A program made the translations under genes and the position numbers. The notes beneath the pieces are model-generated. The model did not search any database, had not been told where the DNA came from, and saw only the letters and a list, made by a program, of their open reading frames with translations. From Ignavibacteriales bacterium (GTDB lineage: Bacteria > Bacteroidota > Ignavibacteria > UBA10030), in assembly GCA_026390595.1 (NCBI GenBank), contig JAPLFQ010000010.1, forward strand, positions 1-64,000: 64,000 bases of DNA. Reading direction: 5' to 3'. The number at the start of each line of letters is the position of its first letter. The stretch's first letter is position 1. This document shows positions 28,003 to 60,126 of the stretch, in pieces.

Positions 28003-28030
28003 CCTTGCATCCTTTTTCAAGGAGGCAAGG
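28003..28030 (+). promoter_or_regulatory. Hairpin hiding the Shine-Dalgarno of integrase 1
   Basis: CCTTGC (28003-28008) pairs with GCAAGG (28025-28030), and TCCTT (28010-28014) with AAGGA (28019-28023), loop TTTC. The ribosome site AAGGAGG (28019-28025) is inside the stem and the ATG is at 28032. Integrase 2 has the same arrangement with different bases, which suggests selection. Confidence 0.7.
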
Positions 28031-28031
28031 T

Positions 28032-29117
28032 ATGTTTCTTTCCAAGCGCAATGGAATCTATTATCTCTGGTATGACGATGACGATGGCCGCAAGCGCAAG
28101 ATCAGCACCAGAGCCCGCCTCAAAAGTGACGCACTAAAGTTCCTCCGTTCATTCGATGAGCGGCGTGAAGCCATTCGTCGAGCCAGAACACATCTTTCAG
28201 TCTTCTCCGTTGATGCCGTCCGCTATGCTGAAACCACTTTGAACAAGGGGACAGCCAAGCTCTACGATCATGCTCTCCGTAATTTCAAGAGGATCGTCGG
28301 CGACGCTCTCTTGTCCAAGCTAACACCGAAGCATTTCGACCAATACAAATCTGACCGTCTTCAGCAAGTGTCACCCGTCTCGGTGAACGTGGAGCTGAGG
28401 ACGATTCGGTCGGCTTTGAACCTCGCCGTGCGTTGGGAAGTGATGGAGAGGAATCCGTTCTTTGGGTTGCCGCTGGCTCGTGTCCCTTACGAAACGCCAC
28501 CTTACTTCACAAAGGCTGACTTCCAACGTCTGTTGGACATTGTCACAGAGTCATGGTTTCGAGATGTTGTCATATTTACTGTTGTGACGGGGCTTCGACG
28601 TGGTGAAGTCATCAACCTCAAATGGAATGATGTGGACTTGGAACGGAGGGTAATACTCATCCATAGTCAGGGGGGATTTCGGACTAAGACCGGCAAGAGC
28701 CGATTCATACCCATGAACAATGTCGCCCTGCAGCTTGTAATAAAAAGAAAACCTGTGAGTGTGACCGAGTATCTGTTCGAGGTGGAGGGAAGGAAACTGT
28801 CGGGGTATTGGTTGAGCCACAAGCTGAAAAAATACGTCCGAAAACTCGGGCTACAGGAGAACCTAAACTACCATGCATTGAGGCATACGTTTGCGAGCTG
28901 GTTGGTACAGGACGGGGTGTCGATCTATGAAGTTCAAAAGTTGCTCGGCCACGCTGACGTTTCTACAACACAGATCTACAGTCATCTTCAACCGGAAACC
29001 CTACATAGAACGGTTGAGAGGTTGGATTTTGTTTTGCCACAGCGGTTGCTACTAGAACCTGAAAGCATCCCCGATGTCTCCACCCTGTCCACTCCCGAAA
29101 ATACAACTGGACACTAA
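28032..29117 (+). CDS. Tyrosine recombinase, integrase of element 1
   Basis: 361 residues from ATG 28032. The N-terminal segment resembles SAM-like/Arm-type phage integrase domains (MFLSKRNGIYYLWYDDDDGRKRKISTRA). The catalytic set is complete: Arg189 (TGLRRGEV), the Lys of TKTGKSRFIPM, His-x-x-Arg (HALRHTFASWL), His in LLGHADVSTTQ and the nucleophile Tyr316. It is homologous to the integrase at 59041 throughout, with the same length and identical ends (LLGHAD.STTQIYSHL). The in-frame start at 28005 lies inside the leader hairpin and was rejected. The last codons already carry iteron-like CTGTCCA and TGGACA motifs. Confidence 0.95.
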   Translation: MFLSKRNGIYYLWYDDDDGRKRKISTRARLKSDALKFLRSFDERREAIRRARTHLSVFSVDAVRYAETTLNKGTAKLYDHALRNFKRIVGDALLSKLTPKHFDQYKSDRLQQVSPVSVNVELRTIRSALNLAVRWEVMERNPFFGLPLARVPYETPPYFTKADFQRLLDIVTESWFRDVVIFTVVTGLRRGEVINLKWNDVDLERRVILIHSQGGFRTKTGKSRFIPMNNVALQLVIKRKPVSVTEYLFEVEGRKLSGYWLSHKLKKYVRKLGLQENLNYHALRHTFASWLVQDGVSIYEVQKLLGHADVSTTQIYSHLQPETLHRTVERLDFVLPQRLLLEPESIPDVSTLSTPENTTGH

Positions 29118-33356: not shown

Positions 33357-34934
33357 TTACTCAATAAACACGATGCCCGGTCGATTGACATGATTTGCAA
33401 GCTTCGCAACAATATCCCCCAAAAGCTCCGATTTGATTCTGATTTTGACTGACCGCTCTCTAGCTTTTTCAAGATCTATCGATTTGAAGAGTCTGAAGTC
33501 CAAAATGATACTGATCGAGACGCCGTCAACTAGAAATGAAGGCTTAACTCTGTAGAAAGCCTCGCTCGTTTTCGCGTCGAGGTTATCGCTGCTATGATAC
33601 ATTAACCCAGATATGACTCTCGATTTCAACCATTTGTTCTGCGCGTAGTCGCAAACCGGCGAGACCTCCAATTCGATGAAAGTATAGTCATCGAGATTCT
33701 TGTTGTTTGGGTTTGCAAAATAGTTTGAAAGAAGTTCTTTCTTATGGTCTCCATTCTTCGGGGGGATCTCATATACATTCCCTGGGAGAAGCTCCTGCGA
33801 AGGAGCAGTGTCGAGATGAAGACGGGTATTTATCAGCTGAGCGGATTGTTCATACAGATCTACCATCTGGATGCAGAATCCCTTGTCGGGTTCAGTGAGA
33901 TTGTTTATTACTTTTTGTAAGTTCTTTCCATTGCCTATAGTCTTCCCGTTCTTCTTCAAGGTATACAAGTCATCGGCATTCAGCTCGAGTGCATATAGAT
34001 CTTTATCCTTAATCAGAGAAAATAAAAGATCCGTCGTTCGTAGATAATCAATGGCCGAGTAGGCTCGGTTTGTTTCGACTTCCAAAACGTCTTCGAAAGA
34101 TGCATTGAAAGTGCCGAGTGAGTTCTTAAGCAGCGCGACTGCATCAGCCACGTTGGAACCAAGCCTTGCCTTGGCCATTCGCTGCAAGATGGCACTCATG
34201 TTTTCATTCCAGACGTTGGCTGGACTAGTAGGGATTGCGAAACCATTCACAATGCGGGCCGAAGATCTGTGAACCAGATTTTCCCAAATAATGAAGATTT
34301 GAAATACTCCGAGTGATTTCAGTTTTTCATCCAAAGCTTCTTCAATCTTTTCAATCGCGTTTCCTTTTTCAACGTATTCAAGTCCCCCCTTCTCATCACT
34401 CTTCGAATCGAAATAGATAGCTTTCTCTAAGCTGATGATTCCGAGAGGAAGGCATAGCTTAAGTGTCTCCGACAGCGTTAGGCGTTCCGACAAGAGTTGG
34501 ATCAGGTGGTCATCCTTAGCCCAGACCAAAATGAAATATGGACCATTGTCCCGTGGTATGAGCCTCTCCATCACAGTGATGACTTTTGAAACTTTCGTGA
34601 TGTCATTCTGCCCTGCTGTCTCAAGTTCGATGTCAAGAAAAATCAATCTAGTGCACGAAAGTGGTTTGGCGGGTAATTCTCCAATTCTTCCATTGTAATA
34701 TGTGAACGGGATGTGATTTCTTGAAAGCACTTTCAGTAGTGGAAGGCTCTCGGTTATGTTATCATCGATTACGATCACCCGACCATTCATCGGAATATTC
34801 ATCGTCGAAGATTCGTGAACTGTTGTCGCCGCTTTCTGAGTCAATTTAGCCTGAACGGCATCTTTTGTCTCTTTGCCGGGCGTAACCATAAGCTCTCGAT
34901 CGATAAGTTTTCGGAGTCCTAGTGCAACATCCAC
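33357..34934 (-). CDS. Receiver-like protein, partner of the dual-GHKL kinase
   Basis: About 525 residues from GTG 34934. A receiver-like domain covers the first 200: acidic VIVIDDN and acceptor-like Asp101 in LIFLDIELE, then FILVWAKDD in place of the usual switch. The remaining 320 residues are not recognised (LGSNVADAVALLKNSLGTF ... FLVDGVSISIILDFRLFKS). The longer ORF to 35006 would overlap the kinase gene by 65 bp and is antisense-like there, so I prefer GTG 34934 (7 bp after the kinase stop); ATG 34889 is another option. The gene order suggests kinase and target. The receiver resembles the family called Response_reg_2, which I name from memory. Confidence 0.72.
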   Translation of the reverse strand: MDVALGLRKLIDRELMVTPGKETKDAVQAKLTQKAATTVHESSTMNIPMNGRVIVIDDNITESLPLLKVLSRNHIPFTYYNGRIGELPAKPLSCTRLIFLDIELETAGQNDITKVSKVITVMERLIPRDNGPYFILVWAKDDHLIQLLSERLTLSETLKLCLPLGIISLEKAIYFDSKSDEKGGLEYVEKGNAIEKIEEALDEKLKSLGVFQIFIIWENLVHRSSARIVNGFAIPTSPANVWNENMSAILQRMAKARLGSNVADAVALLKNSLGTFNASFEDVLEVETNRAYSAIDYLRTTDLLFSLIKDKDLYALELNADDLYTLKKNGKTIGNGKNLQKVINNLTEPDKGFCIQMVDLYEQSAQLINTRLHLDTAPSQELLPGNVYEIPPKNGDHKKELLSNYFANPNNKNLDDYTFIELEVSPVCDYAQNKWLKSRVISGLMYHSSDNLDAKTSEAFYRVKPSFLVDGVSISIILDFRLFKSIDLEKARERSVKIRIKSELLGDIVAKLANHVNRPGIVFIE

Positions 34935-34941
34935 AACTAGG

Positions 34942-37035
34942 CTAAGCACTATCCTTAAAAGCGAGACAAACCATCGCGCCGTCTTTGAATTCCTGAGGTA
35001 CATCAAAATCTCCTTGGTCAGGGAAGATCAGAAGGCCTCCGTGGGCTTCCATTATCTCCCTGGACAAATGCAGACCGAGTCCCATTCCATAGGGCTTCGT
35101 CGAAACAAATGGTTTTGCCAATTCTTCGGTTGGCATGGAGAATCCGGGGCCGTTATCTGCAACTATGATTGTGGTGTAGCCGTGTAATTCTTTCGAGATC
35201 GAAAAATAAATCTCTTTGTCCTCTGTTTCACTGTATTCAAGCCACCATATCGAATTATCAATGAGGTTCATAAGGGCCGCCAACACAAGGTTCTCAGCAC
35301 ACTCGATCCTGTCGATTCCTGGGAAGTACTCAAAAGCCCTGCGCGCACGAATCTTGTGAACCTTAAGCCTGAACTCAACGTTGAAAAGTGCTTGGCTTAG
35401 CAAGTACTTAGGATCGACTTTCTTTTTTCCGGTGTTCCTTATGAGCAGTCCGTATCCTTCTAGCAGCTGTGATAGGTGCTTGACCAAGGCGACGATTCGT
35501 TTTGAAGGCTTGTCGTTCTGTGTGACTATGATTAGTTCCTTTATCACTTTGTCGACTTCATGTATTACTATGCTTAGGTTCAATCCCGCACCGGCGCTTC
35601 TAAGAAGTATCTCAGTCATGCTTCTATAGTCATTCTGTATCTTGTGAATATACTTCTTGACCTCCCGTTTGAGATCCTCGTCTTTGATCTTTCTCTCAAT
35701 AACCTTCTCAAGTTCATCCAGGCTCGCGACAACAGGTTCTGGGATCGATTCCGTCCCATAGAACTTTCTAACCTTGTCTTTGTCGACGTTCCTCATCGTC
35801 TCAACGATGTTCAGAGAGTAGAGGATTGCCTTTACAAAAGTCTCGTAGGCCTCATTCTCAACAAATCCTTCCCGGTTGGTTTTCTCAATCAGGTCTTCAC
35901 TGGCTTCTCGTGATAGATTAATTGCTCCAAGGATTATGTTATTACTGATTCTCTTAACCGGGACGTTCACGCGGCGGATATCCAGACTTAGCCAATCATT
36001 TCCTGGATCGCCGTATTCGTTTATCCTGATGCCGTCTCTATAGACTCTTATACCCCCGTTTGCATTTAGATAATCCCGTAGGCCTCGTTTGTCTTGGACG
36101 CCGAGAGACAAGACTCGTGGAGTTCTGTCGAAAATTACGCCTTCGAAAGTCACTGGACCCATCTTGGAGGCGGACAAGTCGATCGCCTCGTCCTCATCAT
36201 CAACCATCTTCAACAGATTCTTGATTTCATTGTCTTTCTCGTCCAGCGACCTTCCGTTCAACTTCTTCATTGCTGGGAAGGGAGTGAATTCATATTTGAA
36301 AGATGTGATCACTTTCCCTTCCATCCTACAGTTGAATCTGTACAATGCATATTGAGATACCTCATCCCAGGACATCAGTCCCTTTATCCACTCCTTTTCG
36401 TCAACATCAAACACCACAAAAAAGGACTCGGGAGTATCAAATGGGGAGGACAGGGCGTTAGTGGAACGATACACGTCCCTGACCATTCCACGTGTCCATG
36501 GCGCATGGAGACTTGATATGGTAATTCGGGTGCCGGTCTTGTCGCCGATAAACACTTCGGGCTTCCGGGTGTAAACGGAAACAGGAACATCGTCCAAGTA
36601 CTTTTCCTTCGCAAATGTTCGCCAATCAATTTGTAGGTACACTTCATCACAGTCTTTCTGGCGAGTGACAAGTTCTATTACGTTCCCAAGCTTATGCGCT
36701 CCAAATCTGCCAATCCCTTTTTCACCAAGTGGCAATCTTCCAAACCTGTGCGAACGGATTCTCTTTGCAAACAGCTGCGTCTTGTAGTCGCTCCCCGGTT
36801 CCATCCATACATTCTTGACGATCTCTGGATCCATTCCAATGCCATCGTCCTCAACGACTATGGATCCCGCAGCGTCATCTGATACCTTTGACATGGTGAT
36901 TTGTACGAAGTTAGCATCTGCGTCATACGAATTCTTGGCAAGCTCCAAAAGGGCGATGCTTGGATTCTTGATTAACTGATCCCCAAGTTGAAGCAGCAGT
37001 CTGGCTCTCGGTTTGAATACAAGTTCCTGTTTCAC
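34942..37035 (-). CDS. Soluble kinase-like protein with two GHKL ATPase domains
   Basis: 697 residues, no membrane helix. N-terminal GHKL ATPase (1-200): Asn35 in ELAKNSYDADA, VVEDDGIGMD, then GIGRFGAHKLG. Middle linker of about 250 residues. An H-box-like helix has His492 (NLSIVIHEVDKVIKEL), and a second GHKL domain follows at the C-terminus (LMNLIDNSIWWLEY, DNGPGFS, GMGLGLHLS). The C-terminal part is a histidine kinase core, while the N-terminal part is Hsp90/MORC-like and may be the sensor. The receiver-like gene follows after 7 bp. A two-component defence or stress system is my inference. Confidence 0.78.
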   Translation of the reverse strand: MKQELVFKPRARLLLQLGDQLIKNPSIALLELAKNSYDADANFVQITMSKVSDDAAGSIVVEDDGIGMDPEIVKNVWMEPGSDYKTQLFAKRIRSHRFGRLPLGEKGIGRFGAHKLGNVIELVTRQKDCDEVYLQIDWRTFAKEKYLDDVPVSVYTRKPEVFIGDKTGTRITISSLHAPWTRGMVRDVYRSTNALSSPFDTPESFFVVFDVDEKEWIKGLMSWDEVSQYALYRFNCRMEGKVITSFKYEFTPFPAMKKLNGRSLDEKDNEIKNLLKMVDDEDEAIDLSASKMGPVTFEGVIFDRTPRVLSLGVQDKRGLRDYLNANGGIRVYRDGIRINEYGDPGNDWLSLDIRRVNVPVKRISNNIILGAINLSREASEDLIEKTNREGFVENEAYETFVKAILYSLNIVETMRNVDKDKVRKFYGTESIPEPVVASLDELEKVIERKIKDEDLKREVKKYIHKIQNDYRSMTEILLRSAGAGLNLSIVIHEVDKVIKELIIVTQNDKPSKRIVALVKHLSQLLEGYGLLIRNTGKKKVDPKYLLSQALFNVEFRLKVHKIRARRAFEYFPGIDRIECAENLVLAALMNLIDNSIWWLEYSETEDKEIYFSISKELHGYTTIIVADNGPGFSMPTEELAKPFVSTKPYGMGLGLHLSREIMEAHGGLLIFPDQGDFDVPQEFKDGAMVCLAFKDSA

Positions 37036-38163: not shown

Positions 38164-38727
38164 TTAGCTAGCCTTCCGAAATGATGTGGTTTGGATTATG
38201 CCCCCAAATGACAACACCCATGCAGAAAACAGGACCATACCAAACCCGAGTTGAGTCTTCCCAGTTGTAACGCCTAGAATGAAACAAAAGAGATACCATG
38301 CAAGGCTGATGATGAGTGTAATTCTCAGGTATTTCAATGGCTTGATGGCCTCACTTTTGGCTATCGCCTTCTTTGTTTGTGTGATGCCAACTATCGGATA
38401 AATAACTGCATAAAGAAATGCCAAAACTAGAGTCAAGCCTTTAGCATCATTATTTCCTTGCTCACGGAATAGGTTGCCCAAATAGAAGCACAAACTTATC
38501 CATACAAAGCCACCAATGAACATGAATCTTAATGATCTCGTGGTGGTCTGGATTACCTCAATCAGAGCGGATCCTTGACTAGGCGCATCAGACTTCGTGC
38601 CCGCATCACCGTATCCCCCGTGTTGACCGCGCTCAACTGATTGCTTCGATCTCAAATCAACATGACAATACCGACAGAGTATGGCCTCATCTTGGATTTC
38701 TTCGGCGCAGTAGGGGCATTTCTTCAT
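38164..38727 (-). CDS. Zinc-ribbon membrane protein, paralogue A
   Basis: 187 residues. The N-terminal zinc ribbon has Cys4 and Cys7 (KKCPYCAEE) with a second pair CRYCHVDL. After a low-complexity linker come four hydrophobic helices between about 70 and 180. The zinc ribbon [13 protein letters not shown] is nearly the same as in the gene upstream (38776-39432), so the pair is paralogous. The cytoplasmic zinc ribbon plus membrane anchor could localise or regulate a complex. Function unknown. Confidence 0.75.
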
Positions 38728-38775: not shown

Positions 38776-39432
38776 TTACTTCTTCGTTGTAAGCGTTCCG
38801 AGGACACGCCAACTACCCGCGTCTGTTTGCATGTACCCGACTCCGACGTTAATAAGGCCCTTCTCGAAATTCTGTATGCTCTGATATGGTTGCACTCTCG
38901 ATTTGGTGTAACCTTGTTCAAGTAGGCTGTTGACCATACGATTCGCCTGATCTACTGAAGCTTCTTCTGACACACACGCGTATACTTTCACTACTGTTAC
39001 CTTGCCGTCCCCCTGGGTGCTCACCATGTCAAAACCAGAGGCTCTTTCGTAGATCAGAACTGTGCTCAACTCTTGAGTCTGGCTTCGAGTTGGGGTGCCC
39101 AAGAATCCAACGAGATCTGATTTTCCTAGACTTAGCACCGGTTCATAATCGCTTGGGAACAGCATTGCAGATTGGCTACGTCTTGGTGGTCCCTCTTCCT
39201 TCTGAATATTCAAGATCACGCCGACTGCGAGCACCATCATGACGAATATGATGGCATACCAATGCTTGACGAACGATACGACTCCTTTTGGGATGATATT
39301 GCCCCCATCGAAGCTCGACCCATCACCTTTGGATCGTACCTGCACATCGCTCAGATCCGAGCCACAGTATTCGCAATTGTTTGCCGCATCTTGGATTTCT
39401 TCGGCGCAGCAGGGGCATCTTCTCACGCTCAC
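38776..39432 (-). CDS. Zinc-ribbon membrane-anchored protein, paralogue B
   Basis: 218 residues. Zinc ribbon at the N-terminus (CPCCAEEIQDAANNCEYCGSDL), one membrane helix (AIIFVMMVLAVGVILNI) and an extracytoplasmic domain of about 130 residues that has a conserved-looking lipoprotein/SmpA-like pattern (LGKSDLVGFLGTPTRSQTQ) and ends KK. The G-x-P-T-R pattern resembles the outer-membrane lipoprotein SmpA family, but this is weak. It is preceded by the structured element at 39565-39691. Confidence 0.72.
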   Translation of the reverse strand: MSVRRCPCCAEEIQDAANNCEYCGSDLSDVQVRSKGDGSSFDGGNIIPKGVVSFVKHWYAIIFVMMVLAVGVILNIQKEEGPPRRSQSAMLFPSDYEPVLSLGKSDLVGFLGTPTRSQTQELSTVLIYERASGFDMVSTQGDGKVTVVKVYACVSEEASVDQANRMVNSLLEQGYTKSRVQPYQSIQNFEKGLINVGVGYMQTDAGSWRVLGTLTTKK

Positions 39433-39564
39433 TCCTCTGTTCTAACGGGTACAAAAAAACCTCTTTCATCCATCATCGATGGAATCCAGAGGTTCACGAA
39501 AATCTCTCCAGTTGCCGACCACCCAACAAAAACCCCTGGGCTAAGTTTCCAAGGCAACTCCAAG

Positions 39565-39691
39565 TCGGCTGACTTAGGCGTCATCTCGTACGCAAAGCAC
39601 CAGGGGCAACAGAACCCAAATGGGTAGAGTTGCCCGAAGATGCGTACGAGAGTATCATCTGATACTTTGAAATGTAACCTAAGTCAGCCGA
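39565..39691. other. Multi-stem structured element (RNA or DNA origin of transfer/leader)
   Basis: Nested inverted repeats span 127 bases. P1: 39565-39578 with 39678-39691, 14 bp, all matched (TCGGCTGACTTAGG). P2: CTCGTACGCA 39585-39594 with TGCGTACGAG 39641-39650. P3: GGGCAAC 39604-39610 with GTTGCCC 39629-39635. P4: hairpin CCCAAATGGG at 39615-39624. P5: AGTATC 39651-39656 with GATACT 39661-39666. Outside P1, GTTGCC 39511 and GGCAAC 39553, and CCCCTGG 39533 and CCAGGGG 39600, could form a competing fold. Confidence 0.75.
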
Positions 39692-39720
39692 AAACAAGGT
39701 AGGAATTGGTGGATCGAATA

Positions 39721-40185
39721 TCAAGCGAGGCGGGAGCGCTGTATGAAAATCGTGACGCTTAGCTTTGAAATCTCCTCATTCGAAAACTGAACCCCAGAAT
39801 CTCTCACGACTTCGACCGCATCGCGAATGGACTGGAAGAGAAGCTCCTTGAGATTATCACCTGATGGTGTCAAATGCGGCTCAGATGATTTCTCAAGAAT
39901 CGAAAGCTCCAGTTTCGAACTTCCCTTCTTGCCATTTGCCACACGCTTGAGAAGAAACTCACTGCCAACCCCGAGCTGTTTCTCCTCGATGATCGAGTGT
40001 ATCTCCTCAGTCGCAAACAGGCTTCGGATTTCTCCACTCCCCAGATCCTGCACTGAATACAGATAGAACTTTCCGTAGCTGCTCTGACCTGCGTAGACAG
40101 GTTTGAGAATCTTGAACCGGGCTTCTTGGTTCAGCTCAAGCTCAACCTTCGGTGGGTTGTTGCCATTTCCGTTATTCTGTCCCAT
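39721..40185 (-). CDS. Hypothetical protein, possible OB-fold accessory factor
   Basis: 154 residues from ATG 40185, which has GGAGG upstream. The pattern ARFKILKPVYAGQSSYGKFYLYSVQD followed by GSEFLLKRVANGKKG hints at an OB-fold. It overlaps the end of the Gam-like gene by 14 bp, so the two belong to one transcript. A single-stranded-DNA-binding role with Gam would make sense but is not proven. Confidence 0.65.
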   Translation of the reverse strand: MGQNNGNGNNPPKVELELNQEARFKILKPVYAGQSSYGKFYLYSVQDLGSGEIRSLFATEEIHSIIEEKQLGVGSEFLLKRVANGKKGSSKLELSILEKSSEPHLTPSGDNLKELLFQSIRDAVEVVRDSGVQFSNEEISKLSVTIFIQRSRLA

Positions 40186-40714
40186 TTGACGGACCTCCAT
40201 TGTTGTTGAGTTGATATGAGAAATTGACTCCTGCAGGGATCAGTTTGGTCCCAAGTGGAATCTCGCCAGTGCGTTTGATGTGTGCAGCAATTGCTGCCAG
40301 ATCCGGTTCGTGTTTCTCAGGCGTGGTTCGTAGCCACCCATTACGAGGAGCGATCTTGAGAAAGATGGCCAAGTTGTCGATCTCGATCTTGTCTCGCCCT
40401 TTGCGAAGTGTGAGCGTACCGTGTGGCAACCGAAGGGTCTTTTCACCGGTCTGTTCGGATTGCACGCGCCAGAAGCTCTCAACGTTGAAGAGAAGCCATG
40501 ACCGCTTTTTGTCCAATCGCTCGATCTCCGATTTGCGATACTGCTCGATCAATTTGATTTCGTCATCAGCAAGTGTGTTCACATCGTCCATTTGGGACTC
40601 AAGTTTCGCCACAGCCATCAACAACTGATCTGCTTTCAGGCGGTCCAGCTCGATCTTTACCTTTTGTTCCTTCTCTTCGACCTCAGCCAACAACTCATCC
40701 ATGAACGAAGTCAT
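40172..40714 (-). CDS. Gam-like host-nuclease inhibitor
   Basis: 180 residues from ATG 40714 with a perfect GGAGG. The first half is a long coiled coil (EKEQKVKIELDRLKADQLL ... DKKRSWLLFNVESFW), and the second half has the pattern RLPHGTLTLRKGRDKIEIDN typical of Gam/Gp157-like phage proteins that protect DNA ends. Phage Mu Gam binds linear ends and blocks RecBCD-type enzymes. It stands in the phage-type cluster of element 1 and would protect linear or replicating element DNA. Confidence 0.78.
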   Translation of the reverse strand: MTSFMDELLAEVEEKEQKVKIELDRLKADQLLMAVAKLESQMDDVNTLADDEIKLIEQYRKSEIERLDKKRSWLLFNVESFWRVQSEQTGEKTLRLPHGTLTLRKGRDKIEIDNLAIFLKIAPRNGWLRTTPEKHEPDLAAIAAHIKRTGEIPLGTKLIPAGVNFSYQLNNNGGPSNGTE

Positions 40715-43227: not shown

Positions 43228-44718
43228 ATGAGTAGAACTGAACGCCTGTCGCCGAATTTCGAGCGACTCGACAAGGCCCTGCGCTCAATCGGATATAGCT
43301 TCGAGGCTGCAGTTGCCGACATCATTGATAATTCAATTGACGCCAAAGCACGACATGTTCTCGTTCGGTTCATTCTCCGAAAAAACAAATCGCTGGACCT
43401 TGCTATCCTAGACGACGGCACTGGAATGAGTCCTGCCACCCTGAAGGAGGCCATGCGCTTCGGTGCGGACGTTGCTCAGGAATTGGACAGGCTTGGCAAA
43501 TTTGGCCTTGGGCTGAAACTCGCCTCTCTGAGTCAGGCAAAGGAACTCAGGGTGGTCAGCTACAATGGCTCCACCACCTCGGGCCGGGGATGGCTCGAGG
43601 AAGGCATTTCCTCGGGATTCATGTCAACCATCCTCGATCCCTCCGAATGTCGCAAGATGCTCAAGTCGCTTGTGCCCGACCGGCCTTGGAAAAAATCGGG
43701 GACGGTGGTGTGGTGGTCAAATCTTTATCGCGTAGGTCAAAATCATTCCGACTCAAACGAACATGTGCAAAAATTGATGCGCCGGCTCAAGGAATACCTC
43801 TCCTTGGCCTTCCACCGATTTCTTGCAGGTAGTCCGCGCTTGGTCAATATGGAGATCGATATTTTTGATGGAGACTCAAGCCTTGAGGGACTGCCCCTTC
43901 CCTTGGAGCCCTTGAACCCATTTGGATACAACGCTACGGGACTCAAGGGATTCCCGGCTGAATTGGTTACCGCTGACGGATATGAAAATCGCATCAAGAT
44001 TGTTGGCCACATCTGGCCGCCGAACTCCTCGGTGGCGGAATATGCACTCCCAGGTGGTGCCAACAGTCGTCAGGGGTTCTATTTTTATCGGAACAACCGG
44101 CTGATTCAGGGCGGCGGTTGGAACGGAATGCGCGAAGCCGAGCCCCATCGCTCGCTTGCACGTCTCGAAATAGACATGCATCCGGATTTCGACGTCGATG
44201 TCAGCCTCGACGTAAAGAAGGTTGAAATCCAGTTGCCTCCGGATCTCGTGAAAGCCATCCAGCGATCAAAAACCGCCTCTGGGATTGATTTCAAGAAATA
44301 CCTGTCCCTTGCCGAGGATACATATCGAACTAAACCCGTGACGGAAGACGAACTGCCTTTGATTCCCGTGGATGGTCTGCCCGCCGATCTCTGTGATTTT
44401 CTCCTCAAGGAGCTTAGAATTGATGGCACGAAGCGATACCGAAAGCTCCGCTTCGCTTGGACGAATCTGGACCCGAATTCGTTTTTTGAATTGGATCGTG
44501 ACAGCGATATGCTTCGGATGAACAAACTATATCGCCGCCAGCTTTTACATGGTCTCGACGGCTCCTCGACGGACATTCCCGTCGTGAAGTGCTTGCTTTT
44601 CCTTGTCCTTCGTGATGTGTTGTATTCTCAGCGCATCAGCGCTAAGGTCCGCGAACGGATAGAGCAGGCAAACCGCATTCTTGCCTATGCCGTGAAGTAC
44701 GAGCGGAGCATTGGATAG
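43228..44718 (+). CDS. MutL/MORC-like GHKL ATPase of a restriction-type operon
   Basis: 496 residues. The N-terminal GHKL motifs are complete: Asn35 in DIIDNSIDAKA, DDGTGMS, and GKFGLGLKLASLS. The remainder is a MutL-like domain without a recognised nuclease site. Aravind and colleagues described MutL/MORC-type ATPases in operons with Z1, DUF4420 nuclease, methyltransferase and Vsr, and this is the same gene set. It is the first gene of the operon. The stop overlaps the next gene's possible TTG start. Confidence 0.9.
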   Translation: MSRTERLSPNFERLDKALRSIGYSFEAAVADIIDNSIDAKARHVLVRFILRKNKSLDLAILDDGTGMSPATLKEAMRFGADVAQELDRLGKFGLGLKLASLSQAKELRVVSYNGSTTSGRGWLEEGISSGFMSTILDPSECRKMLKSLVPDRPWKKSGTVVWWSNLYRVGQNHSDSNEHVQKLMRRLKEYLSLAFHRFLAGSPRLVNMEIDIFDGDSSLEGLPLPLEPLNPFGYNATGLKGFPAELVTADGYENRIKIVGHIWPPNSSVAEYALPGGANSRQGFYFYRNNRLIQGGGWNGMREAEPHRSLARLEIDMHPDFDVDVSLDVKKVEIQLPPDLVKAIQRSKTASGIDFKKYLSLAEDTYRTKPVTEDELPLIPVDGLPADLCDFLLKELRIDGTKRYRKLRFAWTNLDPNSFFELDRDSDMLRMNKLYRRQLLHGLDGSSTDIPVVKCLLFLVLRDVLYSQRISAKVRERIEQANRILAYAVKYERSIG

Positions 44719-44719
44719 C

Positions 44720-45703
44720 ATGAAGAAGCCGGCATACATATCCTGGCAGAATTTCTGCGCAACCATCATCGTTGAAGGAGAGCAGCGAACTCACAAAGTC
44801 TCCAATTCCCCGAGAGTGGATTTCTTCTGGGATGGCCAAGGGAGGCGCGTTGGCCTATGGCTTGAAACAGCTTCGGACACGACCCTATCGCCTGAATTGC
44901 TGAAGCTGTCTTTTGTCGACCTCGATGTCGTAAAAGTTGGCACCCGAAACTTCCTCGAAATTGCCACCACATCGAAATCGTTGAGAAGGCAGTTCTACCA
45001 CTTCGCAGTCGCAGTGACGGAGAAGATGTTGTCAGGCGAGGTCTCAGCGCTGGATGCTGTGACTGCCGAATTGCAGTGTTTCGCCGAATTGCTTGCAGAG
45101 CGCTTGGTTCTTGGGGTTGAACGCCAGATAGGATTGCTCGGGGAGCTCTTGTTCTTAGAGCGGCTGACTGCTTCGAAGGGAATTCAAATGCTGGATTGTT
45201 GGGTCGGTCCGGATGCCGAGCCGCATGACTTCCGCGTTGACACGCGCGAATTTGAGGTGAAGACGACCGTTGCCCCGAAGCGGGTGCATATCATCCATGG
45301 TGCCGAACAGTTGGTTGCGTCCAAGGATTGCTCGCTTTTCCTTCTGTCTGTCATACTCGGCCCGCCTGGCGACTCTTCGAGCTTTTCGCTCGCCGGCAAA
45401 GTGCGCGACGTCGAGCGACTTTTCACTGCCAATGCAGCCCGGAAGAAACGATTTTTCGAAAAATTGGAGAAAGCCGGCCTGCGCAAGACCGACCTCGCCC
45501 ACTACGGTCGTAAATATTCTTTTCGCCGTGCTCTTGCCATCATCCCTGTGGACAACAAGTTTCCGGCGTTGACCCGGCCTGTGATACAGAAGGCCATCGG
45601 GTCGCTCTCTCAGCGAATCGAATCAATGCAATATGCCGTGAACCTTGAGGGCCTCGAAAAGGAGGATGGCAGTCCGCAATTCGCTGCCGCCGTTCTCTCG
45701 TAA
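44720..45703 (+). CDS. PD-(D/E)XK motif protein (DUF4420), putative nuclease
   Basis: 327 residues from ATG 44720. A TTG at 44711 overlaps the previous gene, so ATG is preferred. The signature is present: QIGLLGELLFLERL, then HDFRV with Asp170, and the catalytic Glu179-Val-Lys181 in FEVKTT. It is an endonuclease-fold protein of the type found with Z1 and GHKL ATPases. In that arrangement it would be the DNA-cutting subunit. The gap to the Z1 gene is 13 bp. Confidence 0.88.
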   Translation: MKKPAYISWQNFCATIIVEGEQRTHKVSNSPRVDFFWDGQGRRVGLWLETASDTTLSPELLKLSFVDLDVVKVGTRNFLEIATTSKSLRRQFYHFAVAVTEKMLSGEVSALDAVTAELQCFAELLAERLVLGVERQIGLLGELLFLERLTASKGIQMLDCWVGPDAEPHDFRVDTREFEVKTTVAPKRVHIIHGAEQLVASKDCSLFLLSVILGPPGDSSSFSLAGKVRDVERLFTANAARKKRFFEKLEKAGLRKTDLAHYGRKYSFRRALAIIPVDNKFPALTRPVIQKAIGSLSQRIESMQYAVNLEGLEKEDGSPQFAAAVLS

Positions 45704-45716
45704 CTGGAATACACAC

Positions 45717-48671
45717 ATGAAAAATCACGTCGACAGAATCAATGCGGCGCTTGGCGCGATGACAGATCGCCCACGCGCTTTGGTTGACTATCTTCGAAAG
45801 CCCGGCCCGGACTTCGAATCAGCTGACGCGCGGGAAATTCAAAAGATGCTTTCTGTGATTCTCTCGCCTGACCCGAATGACCCCACACGGATTAGATTTT
45901 CAAATCTGTTGCATTCTTGGGATAACGCGAAGGATGGGGAGTGGGTGGGGCAAACTGTCCGAAACTCTTCGACGCGGCGAGCGCTTATCCACATACTGTT
46001 GAAATCGGACAAAGATCTTATCATACGCATTGATGCTCTTTTGCCTTACTACCCACTGGAAGAGCCGCTAATCATCGCTGAAGAACACGCTGACTGGTAT
46101 TCCCCGTCGGTCGGGGTGCGTGACTATTATTGGCGCACATACACCAAGTATCTCCGGGAGCGGCGCGGTTGGGGCGACGTGTCTTTGCTGAATCTCGATA
46201 ACAGCACGCGAAGCATACTTGAATGCCTGTCGAATCCAGAATCGAAGGGCATGTATTCGTCGCGGGGGCTGGTCATGGGCTACGTCCAAAGCGGCAAAAC
46301 GGCCAACTTTGCGGGTTTGGTGGCGCGAGCCGCGGACGTCGGCTATCGCCTTATTATTGTGTTGGCTGGCACCTGGAACATTTTGCGCAACCAGACTCAG
46401 CGACGATTCGATAAAGAACTCTTGGGCAAGGAATTGCTCCACAACGACGACACTTATCAGAATCAACGTCCGGCTGACTGGGATGAGTTTCTTGAGCACG
46501 GGGCGTACCCGCCCGATCTTGGCCACTACACATGGCAGCGGTTGACGCGTCCCGATATTGATTTCAGGGGACTCAAGGCCGCCATTGACAACCTTGAGTA
46601 TGAAAAACGTTACAGGCATCTGCCACTGCATCATCCTGAAAACCTGCACCTTCTCCCCGTGAAGCTCTTGGTAGTGAAGAAAAACAGCTCGGTTCTGGGG
46701 AAGCTTGCGGGCGACTTGGGCAAGTTGAAAACACGCCTCGCTGAAATTCCAACGCTCGTGATCGATGATGAATCAGACCAAGCGGGATTGAACACAGTCG
46801 ACCCAAAAAAGGCGAAGGTCGGCAGGGAAAGGACGGCGACAAACAAGGGCATCATCCGCTTATTGAACCTGCTGCGCCGCGGCCAGTATGTGGGCTACAG
46901 TGCCACCCCCTATGCGAATGCGTTGGTGAATCCAGATGACCCCGAGGACCTTTTCCCGAAAGACTTCATCATTTCTTTGGATCGCCCGGTCGGTTACATG
47001 GGGATTTCTGATTTCTTTGACCCATTCGTTGACTATCATGATCTGAAGAAGAATGATTTTTCCCAGCCGGAACTGGCGTTCATCCGGCGCGTGGAGACCC
47101 CACAAGCAGACGACGACGAGGATTTGAAACAGGCGCTTCGCAGCTATGTGCTCGCTGGCGCGGTGAAACTTTACCGCCTGAACAAGGACACCACTCGTTA
47201 CAAGCCCGAGTCCCTGAAGCACCACACCATGCTCATTCACACCTCATCCCGCAAAGGTGTGCATGCGTCCCTGGCAGAACGGATTCTCGAGCTTTGGGAT
47301 GAGTGTGCCTTCAACAGCCCAGATGGCCTCAACGAACTCAGGAAGTTGTGGGAATCGGATTTTCTTCCAGTCTGCAAGATTCAAGGGAAGGACGAACTTG
47401 TTCCCACTTCGTTCAATGAACTAAAACCACACCTTGCCGTCTCGGTGCAAAAAATCACCCGCGACTCGCATTTCGTCAGAGTCGTGAACAGCGACAAGGA
47501 TGAAGCGCCAGATTTTAGCCACGGTCCGGTATGGAAAATAGTTGTCGGCGGTAACAAGCTCTCGCGCGGTTACACGGTCGAGGGTCTCACGGTAAGTTAC
47601 TACCGGCGCGTTGCCAACACGGCGGATACACTGATGCAGATGGGTCGGTGGTTTGGATTCCGTCCGGGCTATCGCGATTTGGTCCGTGTGTTCCTCGGAG
47701 TTCAGGAGGGTAGGGACAAGTCTCTCGATTTGGTTGCGCTTTTCAAGGAGGTTTGCCGCATGGAGGAGAGCTTCCGCGAGGAGATCAAACGCTATGTTAG
47801 ACGGCCCGGCGCACCGAAGATCACACCTCGTCAGATTCCACCGTTGATTGCCATCTCGGGCGATTTGCCTCCCACGGCTCGGAACAAGATGTTTAACTCG
47901 AAACTTGACCGGAAGAATTTTGGGGGCCGGTGGTCAACTCTCACGCTTACGGCTGCGAAAGCAGCTTCTCTGAAGGAAAACCTTCGGGCGTTACAGAAAC
48001 TCCTCGGTACAGGATCAACCATGGGGCGGCGTGCTCTGGGTGGAACCTTCGGAGACGGGAAAACTGCGCTCGCTGATTGTCTTGTCTTTGAAGTGTCTAA
48101 TGCACAATTGATTTCTTTTCTACATGACTACCGCTGGCTTGAATCAGAATACAAATACCCAGAGCGTCCTACTGACGTCAATCTCCAGATTGAATTCCTT
48201 CAGAACCAGAAACACGATATCACCTCTTGGCTGCTCCTGTTTCCACAACGCAAGATCTCGTTCGGACCAAAGCTTGCGCTGAACCCCTTTGGCGAGTTCA
48301 CCGTTAAAGAACGCCACCGGGTTGGAGAGCGGCGGTTCGGGATATTTGGCGAGTCGTCTCATCACGCCATTGCTGAATCCTTGGTTTCGAAAAAGGATAA
48401 GCAGAAGATTCAGCTTGTTTCCTTAAATGAAGCGACCAAACAACTTCAGAAACGACAACGCGGCATTGCCCTGTTCTATCCAGTTCGCGAGACGGAAGCT
48501 CAAGCAGTCTCAATTGGCTTCGAACTCTTGTTTCCTGCGAACAATCTGCCATTCGACCTCGGCTTCACTGTGCGCCGAAAATCCGAAAGCACGCGGATCA
48601 TCGTTCCAGCTTCGCATATCGCCGCTGAGGCCGCTCGAGAAGAAGATATTGCCGACCGGGGCATCCAATGA
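45717..48671 (+). CDS. Z1-domain ATPase of the restriction-type operon
   Basis: 984 residues from ATG 45717. The Z1 hallmark sequence is clear: Walker A GYVQSGKTANFAGLVARAAD (Lys about 194), Walker B VIDDESDQAGLNT, a GYSATPYAN motif, and the QMGRWFGFRPGY arginine motif. Z1 proteins are helicase-type or translocase-type ATPases. Large C-terminal extension after about 650. With the GHKL ATPase and DUF4420 nuclease it should form a restriction complex. The next gene is 47 bp on. Confidence 0.92.
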   Translation: MKNHVDRINAALGAMTDRPRALVDYLRKPGPDFESADAREIQKMLSVILSPDPNDPTRIRFSNLLHSWDNAKDGEWVGQTVRNSSTRRALIHILLKSDKDLIIRIDALLPYYPLEEPLIIAEEHADWYSPSVGVRDYYWRTYTKYLRERRGWGDVSLLNLDNSTRSILECLSNPESKGMYSSRGLVMGYVQSGKTANFAGLVARAADVGYRLIIVLAGTWNILRNQTQRRFDKELLGKELLHNDDTYQNQRPADWDEFLEHGAYPPDLGHYTWQRLTRPDIDFRGLKAAIDNLEYEKRYRHLPLHHPENLHLLPVKLLVVKKNSSVLGKLAGDLGKLKTRLAEIPTLVIDDESDQAGLNTVDPKKAKVGRERTATNKGIIRLLNLLRRGQYVGYSATPYANALVNPDDPEDLFPKDFIISLDRPVGYMGISDFFDPFVDYHDLKKNDFSQPELAFIRRVETPQADDDEDLKQALRSYVLAGAVKLYRLNKDTTRYKPESLKHHTMLIHTSSRKGVHASLAERILELWDECAFNSPDGLNELRKLWESDFLPVCKIQGKDELVPTSFNELKPHLAVSVQKITRDSHFVRVVNSDKDEAPDFSHGPVWKIVVGGNKLSRGYTVEGLTVSYYRRVANTADTLMQMGRWFGFRPGYRDLVRVFLGVQEGRDKSLDLVALFKEVCRMEESFREEIKRYVRRPGAPKITPRQIPPLIAISGDLPPTARNKMFNSKLDRKNFGGRWSTLTLTAAKAASLKENLRALQKLLGTGSTMGRRALGGTFGDGKTALADCLVFEVSNAQLISFLHDYRWLESEYKYPERPTDVNLQIEFLQNQKHDITSWLLLFPQRKISFGPKLALNPFGEFTVKERHRVGERRFGIFGESSHHAIAESLVSKKDKQKIQLVSLNEATKQLQKRQRGIALFYPVRETEAQAVSIGFELLFPANNLPFDLGFTVRRKSESTRIIVPASHIAAEAAREEDIADRGIQ

Positions 48672-48718
48672 GTAAGGGCAAGCCTGTCTCCCAAATGTCA
48701 CACTCGATTGCAAAGTAA

Positions 48719-50260
48719 ATGCCACTCCCCATCCCTGTCATAGACCTCTTTGCCGGGCCGGGCGGCCTTGGCGAGGGTTTCTCCCGCTGGCGTGGCCGCG
48801 ACGGAAAGCCGGTTTTTAAGATCCGCCTTTCGATTGAGATGGACCCGTGGGCGCACCGCACCCTCCTGCTACGATCCTTCTACAGACAGTTCGAACCCGC
48901 CAATGTGCCGTGCTCATATTATCAATACCTTCGCGGAGAAATGGAATTTGATGAGCTCGAAAAAAGATTCAAACGTGAATTCACCACAGCGCGCTTAGAT
49001 GCGTGGCGAGCCACACTTGGGGAAACCGATCCCAAGGAAGTCAGCTCACGGATTACTTCGGCTCTTGGCCGGGAACGTGACAACTGGCTGCTGATTGGCG
49101 GCCCGCCGTGTCAAGCTTACTCGTTGGTGGGTCGTTCCCGTATGATTGGCGAGAAGGGGCGCGCTGAATTCGAGAGGGATCATCGTCACTTTCTCTACCG
49201 AGAGTATCTGCGAATCATCGCCCGGCATCAGCCGGCTGTTTTTGTCATGGAGAACGTGAAAGGTCTGTTGTCCGCGCAGGTCGGTGACCAACCCATGTTC
49301 CCACTCATCCGTGCCGATCTCCAAGACCCTCTGCGGGTTTTCCCTGAACTGCGGAATCAATCCCGTCGGAAAAATCTCCACTATACGTTATTTTCTCTGG
49401 TCGTTAAGCGCGATCTCGCGGTTGATTTCGAGTCTTCGGATTTCGTCGTCCGGGCTGAGGATTACGGAATACCTCAAGCCCGGCATCGCGTTATCATTCT
49501 CGGAGTGCGTGGCGATACCGCATTTCAACCCGGGCTTCTGAAATCCACACGCACAACCACAGTAAGAGAGGTCATCGGAGATATGCCGCCACTCCGAAGC
49601 CGGCTGTCGTCAAAAGATGCCCCGGAATCGTGGGCTGCAGCAATTCGGTCCCTAGAGAATCTGCGATGGAGCGACAAATCAAATCAGGCCAGAGTGATCC
49701 GTGTAGCTTTGGAGCATAGATTGCGCCGCATTCGTCCCAACCTTTCCGTCGGCAGTTCTTTTGTCCCCTGCCAGACGAATCCCGAACGGCATGAGCGTTG
49801 GTATGTTGACCGGCGCTTGGGCGGAGTCTGTAATCACGAAACGCGTGGCCACATTGAGGGGGATTTGCGTCGCTACTTTTTTGCGGCTGTATTCGCCGCC
49901 GTCTCCGACCCGCCGCGCTCACCCTTGCTACAGGATTTACCGGCCAGTTTACTTCCAGATCACGAGAATGTGGATGAGGCGCTGAAAACGACCAAGTTCA
50001 ATGACCGTTTTCGCGTCCAGCTTGCCGACCGCCCATCGACAACGGTGGTGTCACACATTTCCAAGGACGGCCACTATTACATTCACTACGACCCATCGCA
50101 GTGTCGCAGCCTGACCGTCCGCGAAGCGGCGCGTCTGCAAACCTTCCCTGACAACTACTTTTTTGAAGGCCCGCGGACTGAACAATATCACCAGGTTGGC
50201 AACGCCGTCCCGCCCTTGCTCGCAAAACAGATTGCCGAAATCGTTGCTGGTTTATTTTGA
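48719..50260 (+). CDS. DNA (cytosine-5) methyltransferase
   Basis: 513 residues. All the main C5-methyltransferase motifs are present: SAM-binding VIDLFAGPGGLGEGF at the start, catalytic Cys131 in GGPPCQAYS, ENVKGLL with Glu178, a target-recognition region, and the final motifs (LTVREAARLQTFPDNYFF, YHQVGNAVPPLLA). It would modify the recognition site and so protect the host against the operon's nucleases. The downstream gene follows at 10 bp. Confidence 0.95.
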   Translation: MPLPIPVIDLFAGPGGLGEGFSRWRGRDGKPVFKIRLSIEMDPWAHRTLLLRSFYRQFEPANVPCSYYQYLRGEMEFDELEKRFKREFTTARLDAWRATLGETDPKEVSSRITSALGRERDNWLLIGGPPCQAYSLVGRSRMIGEKGRAEFERDHRHFLYREYLRIIARHQPAVFVMENVKGLLSAQVGDQPMFPLIRADLQDPLRVFPELRNQSRRKNLHYTLFSLVVKRDLAVDFESSDFVVRAEDYGIPQARHRVIILGVRGDTAFQPGLLKSTRTTTVREVIGDMPPLRSRLSSKDAPESWAAAIRSLENLRWSDKSNQARVIRVALEHRLRRIRPNLSVGSSFVPCQTNPERHERWYVDRRLGGVCNHETRGHIEGDLRRYFFAAVFAAVSDPPRSPLLQDLPASLLPDHENVDEALKTTKFNDRFRVQLADRPSTTVVSHISKDGHYYIHYDPSQCRSLTVREAARLQTFPDNYFFEGPRTEQYHQVGNAVPPLLAKQIAEIVAGLF

Positions 50261-50270
50261 TGGACATCTT

Positions 50271-51470
50271 ATGAAATCATATCGGGTAGGGCATTCTTAT
50301 CGTGACTTGACCAAACGCGTCCCCGAAGATGAGTTCATCAACTGGCTAGACACCAACGGCAGCACCATTGGGACTACCGGTGGGATCCGTCCAAAAAAGT
50401 TCTTGTCTTCTATGTTGCTGCAAAGCTTGGGCGGTTTGAAAGTGCCATCCTCACTAGTCATCACCACCACCAATATTTCGCAACAATTCCACAACCCTTG
50501 GGAGGATGTTGTGGATTACAATTCAGGCAGTATTATTTATTGGGGCGATGCCAAATTTGATCCAAATGACCGCGAGCGAACTCATCTCAATTTCAGCGGA
50601 AACAAAATACTTAATCAAATCCATCTACTGAACCTCCAGCAGAAACGGCACCTACTTCCGCCAATTCTGCATTTTTCACGCAACCAGAAAGGATGGGTTC
50701 TGTTTAATGGTCTCTGTGTTCTGGACCGTTTGGAAACGACTTGGTTTGAAGATAAGGGGCGCCCCATCATCAATTTTCGTTGCCATCTTTCCATTCTCGA
50801 TATCAAGGAAGTGCCCTTAGAGTGGCTTCACCAGAGGGCACTGGCGGACGCAACGGAAAAAATGGATCAGAATTGTCCCATTGTATGGCGTCAATATTTG
50901 CAGGGCCACACCAACAAACTTTTTGTTTGGATGGGTAAGATCAGGACAAGAGACGACCAATTGCCCCCGCAGGATTCCGATGAGGCTCGCATCCTCGAAC
51001 AGATTTGCAGTTTGAGCCCAGTCCAGTTTGAAAGGTTTTGCCGGCGACTGTTTCAGGAAATGGCCAATCATACCGGCCTGCAACATCATATCCGGGAAAC
51101 ACGGCATGTCAGGGACGGCGGCTTTGATTTTTTTGGCAGGTTTATTATTCCCGAACCATTGAATTATGAAATTGAGTTCAAGGGTGAGGCTAAAAAATAT
51201 CATCAAGGGAACGGAGTTGGCCCCAAGGAGGTTTCCCGGCTGGTCGCTCGCTTGCAGCGGGGGGAGTATGGTATATTTGTTACAACCTCATATTACACCC
51301 AAGATGCCCAAAAAGAGGTCCGCGAAGATCAGTATCCTGTCCGGCTTTTTTCAGGCATGGATTTGGTTAATTTTTTGAAGGCACTCGGAAAAATCGTCGA
51401 CGGAAAGAAGATCAACTCGGTCTGGCTGGACGCACTCGATGAAAATCAAAGCCCCATTTCAGACGACTGA
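50271..51470 (+). CDS. Restriction endonuclease, Mrr-like PD-(D/E)XK
   Basis: 399 residues from ATG 50271. The N-terminal half (EDVVDYNSGSIIYWGDAKF) recalls the N-terminal domain of modification-dependent AspBHI-type enzymes, but I say so with caution. The C-terminal half is a Mrr-like nuclease: Asp286 (GGFDFFG), Glu302-x-Lys304 (IEFKGEAKKY), then GVGPKEVSRLVARLQRGEYGIFVTTSYYT. It lies directly behind the methyltransferase, 2 bp before Vsr, so it belongs to the operon. It may cut unmethylated or differently methylated DNA. Confidence 0.88.
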   Translation: MKSYRVGHSYRDLTKRVPEDEFINWLDTNGSTIGTTGGIRPKKFLSSMLLQSLGGLKVPSSLVITTTNISQQFHNPWEDVVDYNSGSIIYWGDAKFDPNDRERTHLNFSGNKILNQIHLLNLQQKRHLLPPILHFSRNQKGWVLFNGLCVLDRLETTWFEDKGRPIINFRCHLSILDIKEVPLEWLHQRALADATEKMDQNCPIVWRQYLQGHTNKLFVWMGKIRTRDDQLPPQDSDEARILEQICSLSPVQFERFCRRLFQEMANHTGLQHHIRETRHVRDGGFDFFGRFIIPEPLNYEIEFKGEAKKYHQGNGVGPKEVSRLVARLQRGEYGIFVTTSYYTQDAQKEVREDQYPVRLFSGMDLVNFLKALGKIVDGKKINSVWLDALDENQSPISDD

Positions 51471-51472
51471 AT

Positions 51473-51904
51473 ATGCCTGACGTCTTCACCAAGGCCAAAC
51501 GCTCAGCGGTCATGTCCCGAATTCGCGGACGTGGCAATAAGGATACCGAACTCGCATTGATGAAGCTGTTGCGCCGCCATCACATCGCCGGCTGGCGCCG
51601 AAACCAAAAAGTGTTCGGCAAACCGGATTTTGTGTTTTGGCACGTGCGTCTCGCACTATTTGTTGACGGCTGTTTTTGGCATTGCTGCCCTAAGCACTTC
51701 AACACTCCAGCGAACAACCGCGCCTTCTGGAGAAAAAAGCTCTCGGCCAATCGGGCGCGTGACCGCCGTGTAAATCAGACGTTGCGAAGGTCCGGTTGGC
51801 GCGTTGTTCGAATCTGGGAGCATGAGTTGGCGAGTGGGAAGGAAGAACGGATCGCAGCCAGCATCGCCATGTTCAGTGAAACTAGAGCTAAACCTACAGG
51901 ATAA
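51473..51904 (+). CDS. vsr: Very short patch repair endonuclease (Vsr)
   Basis: 143 residues, the normal Vsr length. The key residues match: Asp52 (FGKPDFVFW), the FVDGCFWHCCP core with His70, and the N-terminal SAVMSRIRGRGNKDTELAL. Vsr nicks T:G mismatches that arise when 5-methylcytosine deaminates, and so repairs damage from the operon's C5 methyltransferase. It ends the operon. Confidence 0.95.
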   Translation: MPDVFTKAKRSAVMSRIRGRGNKDTELALMKLLRRHHIAGWRRNQKVFGKPDFVFWHVRLALFVDGCFWHCCPKHFNTPANNRAFWRKKLSANRARDRRVNQTLRRSGWRVVRIWEHELASGKEERIAASIAMFSETRAKPTG

Positions 51905-59040: not shown

Positions 59041-60126
59041 ATGTTCCTCCATCGCCGCAACAAGATCTACTACCTCCATTATCTCCACGAGGATGGCAGA
59101 CGCCTCAAGGTTTCCACTCATTCCAGCACAAAGGCTGGCGCTTACACATTCATCCAGTCTTTCAAGCGCACGCTCACTCAGGACGGTAAAAGAAAGAAGC
59201 TCATATCCGAGTTCATCCCTGAAGTGGAATCATATGTCGCCTCCACCCACGCCAAGAGCACAGCCTATCTCTTCAAACGTTGCCTGCTCAATCTGATCAA
59301 TGTCGTCGGAGATGTTGCTCTTCGAGACCTATCAGCTCAGAGCTATGATTTTTACGTGGCGGGTCGGCTAAAGACAGTGACAGCTGTTTCGGTGAACGCG
59401 GAAGCTAGGACTCTTCGTACTGCGCTGAATATTGCCCTCCGTTGGAAACTCCTAGATAGTAATCCATTTGCCGGTTTGCCACTGCCTCGTATGCCCGAAC
59501 CTGTGCCAGCATTCTTTACGGTTCAGGAGTTCGAGAAGATGATTGGAGTAGTGAAGGAAGATTGGCTGAAGGATGTTCTTACATTTACAGTATTGACAGG
59601 GTTAAGACGAGGTGAGGTGGTAAATCTGCAGTGGCCACAAGTGGATCTGGAACGGAAGCTGATCATTGTTCAGAGCACGGCGACCTTCAAGACGAAAGCC
59701 GGGAAGAAACGATCTGTCCCACTCGGTGAAATGGCCTACCAGATACTCGACCGAAGGCGAATTTCATTTCCCGATACGGAATATGTGTTCACTAGGAGAG
59801 GCAAGAAGCTTTCTCCCCCATGGCTTAGCCACAAGCTAAAGAAATATGTGCGCAAGCTGAGCCTAGATGAAAACCTGAACTTTCATGCCCTACGCCATAC
59901 CTTCGCTTCGTGGCTCGTCCAAAAGTCCGCTTCGCTCTATGAAGTTCAAAAGCTCTTGGGGCACGCAGACATTTCCACTACGCAGATTTACAGCCATCTG
60001 GCTCCGGAGACGTTGCACCTGACGGTGAACAAACTTCAATTGCACCTTGGAGAGGAAAAGCCAAATGAACCGGTGGATGGAAGTCTACCACCACCGGTAG
60101 CAAAGTCTAGTACTACCGGTAGGTGA
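59041..60126 (+). CDS. Tyrosine recombinase, integrase of element 2
   Basis: 361 residues, homologous over its full length to the integrase at 28032. Catalytic residues: the Arg of TGLRRGEVVNL, the Lys of TKAGKKRSVPL, HALRHTFASWL, LLGHADISTTQ and Tyr317. The N-terminus (MFLHRRNKIYYLHYLHEDG) resembles integrase 1's. The C-terminal 20 residues (PPPVAKSSTTGR) are encoded by the 22-bp repeats. Same length and target tRNA imply a shared att system. Confidence 0.95.
   Translation: MFLHRRNKIYYLHYLHEDGRRLKVSTHSSTKAGAYTFIQSFKRTLTQDGKRKKLISEFIPEVESYVASTHAKSTAYLFKRCLLNLINVVGDVALRDLSAQSYDFYVAGRLKTVTAVSVNAEARTLRTALNIALRWKLLDSNPFAGLPLPRMPEPVPAFFTVQEFEKMIGVVKEDWLKDVLTFTVLTGLRRGEVVNLQWPQVDLERKLIIVQSTATFKTKAGKKRSVPLGEMAYQILDRRRISFPDTEYVFTRRGKKLSPPWLSHKLKKYVRKLSLDENLNFHALRHTFASWLVQKSASLYEVQKLLGHADISTTQIYSHLAPETLHLTVNKLQLHLGEEKPNEPVDGSLPPPVAKSSTTGR

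Follow-up and report, generated by a model that had tools for sequence, protein, structure and literature searches.

A covarying terminator-like hairpin and a single-copy 127-nt palindromic element in the predicted leader of a zinc-ribbon gene of Ignavibacteriales

We analysed a 64,000-nt stretch of DNA (hereafter the window) from an Ignavibacteriales assembly of 4.77 Mb. The 288-nt intergenic gap that holds a palindromic element of 127 nt is flanked by two minus-strand genes, one at 40200-39721 and the other, a zinc-ribbon gene, at 39432-38776 (Table 1). The upstream gene has no Pfam match and comes after Mu Gam-like and DUF932 genes. The original prediction placed the element in a 288-nt leader of the zinc-ribbon gene, with the gene starting at 39432. 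The location in the leader stands, but judging from the sequence a GTG at 39426 is the more likely start. This codon has the SD sequence AGGAG at 5-nt spacing and, in the protein read from it, MRRCPCCAEE aligns with ten residues of the gene at 38727. Homologue searches found no close homologue of the zinc-ribbon gene.

Two tyrosine integrases (28005-29117 and 59041-60126, plus strand) frame the Gam/DUF932 operon and the region of a defence operon, suggesting that the region between them is an integrated island. The defence-type operon (43228-51904, plus strand) encodes a MORC-like HATPase, a DUF4420 PD-(D/E)XK protein, a Z1-domain protein, a C5 cytosine methylase, an AspBHI/Mrr-type restriction enzyme and a Vsr nuclease. 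Two overlapping genes at 33357-37035 (minus strand) encode a large HATPase protein and a 549-aa partner without a Pfam match. The gene directly upstream of the element (39721-40200, minus strand) has a paralogue 31 kb away (G000:C10:70917-71375) that is 82% identical. The paralogue is followed by its own terminator-like hairpin; the window copy is not. We rejected the idea that the 127-nt sequence is a 3’ untranslated element of the upstream gene, as it is absent from the homologues and from this paralogue.

Table 1 Features of the leader and of the zinc-ribbon gene, in window coordinates
Feature	Position	Strand	Basis
Predicted promoter: -35 TTGATA (39724-39719), 17-nt spacer, -10 TACCTT (39701-39696)	39696-39724	-	family-trained weight matrix
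127-nt three-way-junction element, palindromic	39565-39691	-	fold z, single copy, no relatives in searches
Closing stem, 5’ arm	39678-39691	-	perfect 14-bp inverted repeat with 39565-39578
Closing stem, 3’ arm	39565-39578	-	pairs with 39678-39691, 14 bp
Small junction hairpin (39651-39657/39660-39666)	39651-39666	-	pair probability 0.998
Long arm: 10-11-bp stem (39584-39594/39641-39651)	39584-39651	-	fold, pair probabilities
Long arm, continued: 7-bp stem (39604-39610/39629-39635) and 4-bp apical stem (39614-39617/39622-39625)		-	fold, pair probabilities
Local leader hairpin, AGTTGCC/GGCAACT stem around CCCA..TGGG	39510-39559	-	pair probability 0.9996
Terminator-like hairpin AACCUCU-GGAU-stem-UGAAAGAGGUU and U-tract (39459-39453)	39451-39496	-	model R2, family covariation
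Ribosome-binding site AGAGGAG of the zinc-ribbon gene	39432-39438	-	sequence
Zinc-ribbon membrane protein gene	38776-39432	-	weak Pfam zinc-ribbon scores, under curated cut-offs

The hairpin at 39496-39451, with its run of seven U, lies 20-25 nt upstream of the zinc-ribbon start codon. It is the sole part of the leader with relatives, and similar hairpins occur in many genomes of the order. It scores 67.5 bits (E about 1e-12) against model R2, whose seed included this copy; its sequence likeness to relatives had been detected before the model was built. A covariance model made from 15 hairpins was run on 98 genomes of the order, with the best 64 candidates of each genome scored. At E <= 0.1 it gave about 110 matches, spread over 43 of the genomes; some members may thus have escaped, and chance hits will be present among the weaker matches. 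Among 294 genomes drawn from the class, 16 had a match at E <= 1e-4, and all 16 belong to the order Ignavibacteriales. No Rfam family covered the hairpins of 20 relatives. The hairpin family is uncatalogued and restricted to Ignavibacteriales.

An alignment of 58 distinct sequences had 96.6% of its cells paired and contained 94 two-sided changes, compared with 26.5 after shuffling; the alignment was fitted to the model, and these counts lean towards it. When the structure was slid along the alignment, pairing dropped to 43-59%. Outside the helices, internal-loop bases are near-constant (by alignment column, A13 in 57, G12 in 52, G80 in 56 and A81 in all of the 58 sequences), which suggests recognition by a protein, a ligand or the transcription machinery. 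The family signature, CCUCY-GGA-stem-UGA-RGAGG followed by a U-tract, is present in the window hairpin. A consensus terminator scan reported no terminator at this position, probably because the internal loop violates its stem rule. The gene downstream of the family hairpin was co-directional in 44 of 49 called cases, and often less than 100 nt away.

Several observations concern other members of the family. A common 5’ hairpin with a GGRGA loop was considered and dropped, as the leaders above the hairpin fold like shuffled sequences (mean z -0.55). A leader peptide ending at the hairpin was considered and not adopted; several family leaders contain short open frames, including UUG..UGA in the window. 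Four leaders before YbaK-like genes (L051, L057, L090 and L103) carry a short frame, M(K/N)xLSR.., with a ribosome-binding site; it changes at third positions of the LSR codons and is possibly a leader peptide. One genome (G052) has similar promoter-leader-hairpin units before unrelated genes (L049, L105, L113 and L117), and in the last three of these the hairpin has an 82-nt form with an enlarged apical part.

We trained a promoter weight matrix iteratively on the regions upstream of 54 other family leaders, with the window excluded. Its consensus is TTGACA-17-TAnCTT, located 46-79 nt ahead of the hairpin in most members. The window promoter scored 19.3, the highest of 127,920 positions when both strands of the window were scanned. 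Its predicted -35 shares bases with the upstream gene's stop codon, and the predicted start, about 39689, falls inside the first bases of the 127-nt element. TTGACA-17-TAnCTT is probably the general housekeeping promoter of the group, so the match supports transcription but not a specific regulator. We found no separate promoter between the hairpin and the zinc-ribbon start, and the hairpin therefore looks like part of the leader of the zinc-ribbon gene. It is unlikely that the region instead gives an independent small RNA, about 240 nt long and ending at the hairpin, with any effect on the downstream gene being incidental. A promoter and a terminator-like hairpin are predicted for such an RNA, but the gene, which begins about 20 nt past the U-tract, showed no promoter of its own, and the family hairpins precede co-directional genes.

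The folded element at 39565-39691 is real. The RNA fold of 39560-39696 (137 nt) reached -68 kcal/mol, compared with -33.8 +/- 3.7 for shuffled sequences (z = -9.1), and 0 of 200 shuffles were as good. Folding of the element with DNA energies gave z = -9.0 and -9.4 for the two strands. The structured element seen at first inspection was thereby borne out, with z about -9 on both strands and for RNA and DNA alike, and each of the stems described then (a 14-bp closing stem, a second stem of 10 bp, a 7-bp stem and two hairpins) is present where it was placed. The overall shape, which had been likened to a cloverleaf, is a three-way junction. It lacks the four arms of a cloverleaf and has a short hairpin and a long, interrupted arm. 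G-U pairs make up 2 of 47 pairs on the minus strand and 0 of 44 on the plus strand. Because the fold is alike on both strands and has few G-U pairs, it is silent by itself on whether the element acts as DNA or as RNA.

No relatives of the element were found in 98 genomes of the order, by DNA search and with a covariance model built from the single element, or in 395 genomes drawn from the phylum by DNA search. Distant BLAST searches detected no similar DNA in phages or plasmids, and exact patterns gave none in viral contigs. The window has no Rfam match above the gathering score, the element itself has only chance-level matches, and tRNA and tmRNA scans gave no match. The element is present in a single copy. 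Its terminal repeat shows no enrichment in the genus, as 12 of 12 strand counts in 6 genomes fell below those of the reversed-pattern control, and a mobile partner is therefore not known. CTTG occurs to either side of the element, on one of them shifted by 3 nt, and no clear target-site duplication was seen. ERIC-like and miniature inverted-repeat palindromes have terminal inverted repeats and a strong fold, and can sit in transcribed leaders. The element resembles them in its length of about 127 bp, its terminal inverted repeats, its strong fold and its position inside a leader predicted to be transcribed, but differs in being single copy, without a partner and without a visible target duplication. 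The multiple copies or autonomous partner expected of miniature inverted-repeat transposable elements were not found. Nor does the element fit an integron attC site in a cassette array, as the outer arms (TCGGCTGACTTAGG) read without RYYYAAC or GTTRRRY boxes and the element is single copy. A retron was rejected because no reverse transcriptase is among the annotated neighbours.

The original prediction had further offered an oriT or double-strand origin. We found no support for this or for a rolling-circle origin, as the Pfam matches of the neighbouring genes include no relaxase or Rep protein and no similar phage or plasmid DNA was found. More broadly, the element could act as DNA, in the form of a cruciform or single-strand hairpin serving as a recombination site, replication origin or transposon end, and lie beside the promoter by chance. 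The equal folding of both strands, the plus strand without any G-U pair and the island with its two tyrosine integrases are compatible with this, but no relaxase, Rep or transposase was found nearby, and the single copy, the missing plasmid or phage match and the lack of partner repeats make such a role quite improbable.

A competing fold had also been proposed, in which GTTGCC/GGCAAC and CCCCTGG/CCAGGGG outside the element could pair in another way. The complementary segments exist: CCCCTGG/CCAGGGG and GGCAACTC/GAGTTGCC are both present in the sequence. Between the element and the downstream leader there are seven 6-mer, three 7-mer and one 8-mer complementarities, compared with 2.8, 0.7 and 0.14 in shuffled sequences (P = 0.05, 0.058 and 0.094, respectively), which is near chance and weak evidence for the competing fold. 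The ensemble probability of the alternative pairings is below 1e-14 in a nested model, which cannot score pseudoknots. For GTTGCC/GGCAAC the prediction is a local hairpin located downstream of the element and compatible with the main fold, and the leader part holding this hairpin (39510-39559) is, when folded alone, no better folded than shuffles (z = -0.84). The earlier proposal of a leader regulator survives in outline, given the family-trained promoter, the covarying terminator-like hairpin and the co-directional gene, but without a competing-fold switch that can be told from chance.

The same pairings bear on a further idea, in which the element would be a dedicated sensor domain, either riboswitch-like or binding a protein, and would use the CCCCUGG/CCAGGGG and GUUGCC/GGCAAC alternatives to act together with the terminator hairpin. 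The predicted RNA start right at the closing stem, the very stable fold and the presence of complementary segments would all suit a sensor. We nevertheless doubt this explanation, as the complementarities reach only P values of 0.05-0.09, the element has no relatives and hence no covariation, and it is absent from every other family leader examined. In addition, evolved RNA usually has more G-U pairs than the 2 of 47 seen here.

The spacing of the leader points to a different origin. In the window, 200 nt separate the -10 from the hairpin, which is outside the usual, though not universal, range of 46-79 nt; without the element the distance is 73 nt. As this falls within the family range, insertion of a palindromic sequence into the leader is the most likely origin of the element. 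The start within the first bases of the element argues against this, as it would be a coincidence under insertion and is expected of a dedicated RNA domain. A leader from a sister species of the same genus (L096) offers a precedent. There the promoter lies at 180 nt and the leader carries a palindromic repeat (1440-1580, minus strand) with 32 matches in each of G050 and G051. The related leader in the window’s own genome (L093) is without this repeat. Both cases place palindromic DNA within a leader of the same hairpin family, but the sequences are unrelated and the L096 repeat is high-copy, with 32 matches per genome in two species. By analogy, L096 shows a precedent for a palindrome in such a leader, not proof of insertion.

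From the computed fold, hairpin family, covariation, promoter match and spacing, we infer that the region is probably a transcribed 5’ leader in which a premature terminator controls the zinc-ribbon gene, and that the 127-nt palindromic domain it carries was probably inserted. On the minus strand, RNA polymerase would start at about 39689 from the promoter at 39724-39696. The initial 127 nt of the transcript would form a rigid three-way junction, closed off by the 5’ end. About 70 nt further on, the polymerase would meet the terminator-like hairpin and U-tract (39496-39451). Termination of part of the transcripts at this point would leave an RNA of about 240 nt; the others would continue into the gene, which starts at 39426-39432. 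The element would be a palindromic insertion tolerated in a standard leader of about 73 nt. It may alter RNA stability or termination, and would not be the conserved sensor.

This arrangement resembles known premature-terminator attenuators (PMC2965389) in having a predicted promoter, a short leader, a terminator-like hairpin and a co-directional gene directly after it. It differs in that no antiterminator, leader peptide or ligand was identified here, and in that the family has a conserved internal loop inside the hairpin and is restricted to one order. The rimP-leader (PMC2965389) differs in sequence and loop, and belongs to one gene family, whereas the hairpins described here precede many unrelated genes. 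Naville and Gautheret attributed 25-35% of conserved terminator clusters to insertion-sequence transposition (PMC2965389), and some of our leaders within one genome are paralogous in sequence. Both facts would be in keeping with a family that has no regulatory role and has spread as ordinary terminators or as mobile attenuators derived from insertion sequences. The common promoter spacing, the constant internal-loop bases and the diverged flanks argue against such a spread, which we consider to have a low probability.

As a tentative proposal, less likely than the leader model for the window, the hairpin with the constant GGA/UGA loop could be a new cis-regulatory RNA class of Ignavibacteriales. 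A shared protein or small molecule would bind it and set read-through before many unrelated genes, such as those for sensor kinases, response regulators and secreted proteins, and the window would hold a variant with an added 127-nt domain. Supported by covariation, the family is a candidate for a leader RNA acting across a regulon in an order that has been little studied, and its promoter, start and end are predicted. The window and the precedent from the sister species further indicate that palindromic DNA can lie inside the leaders of this hairpin family.
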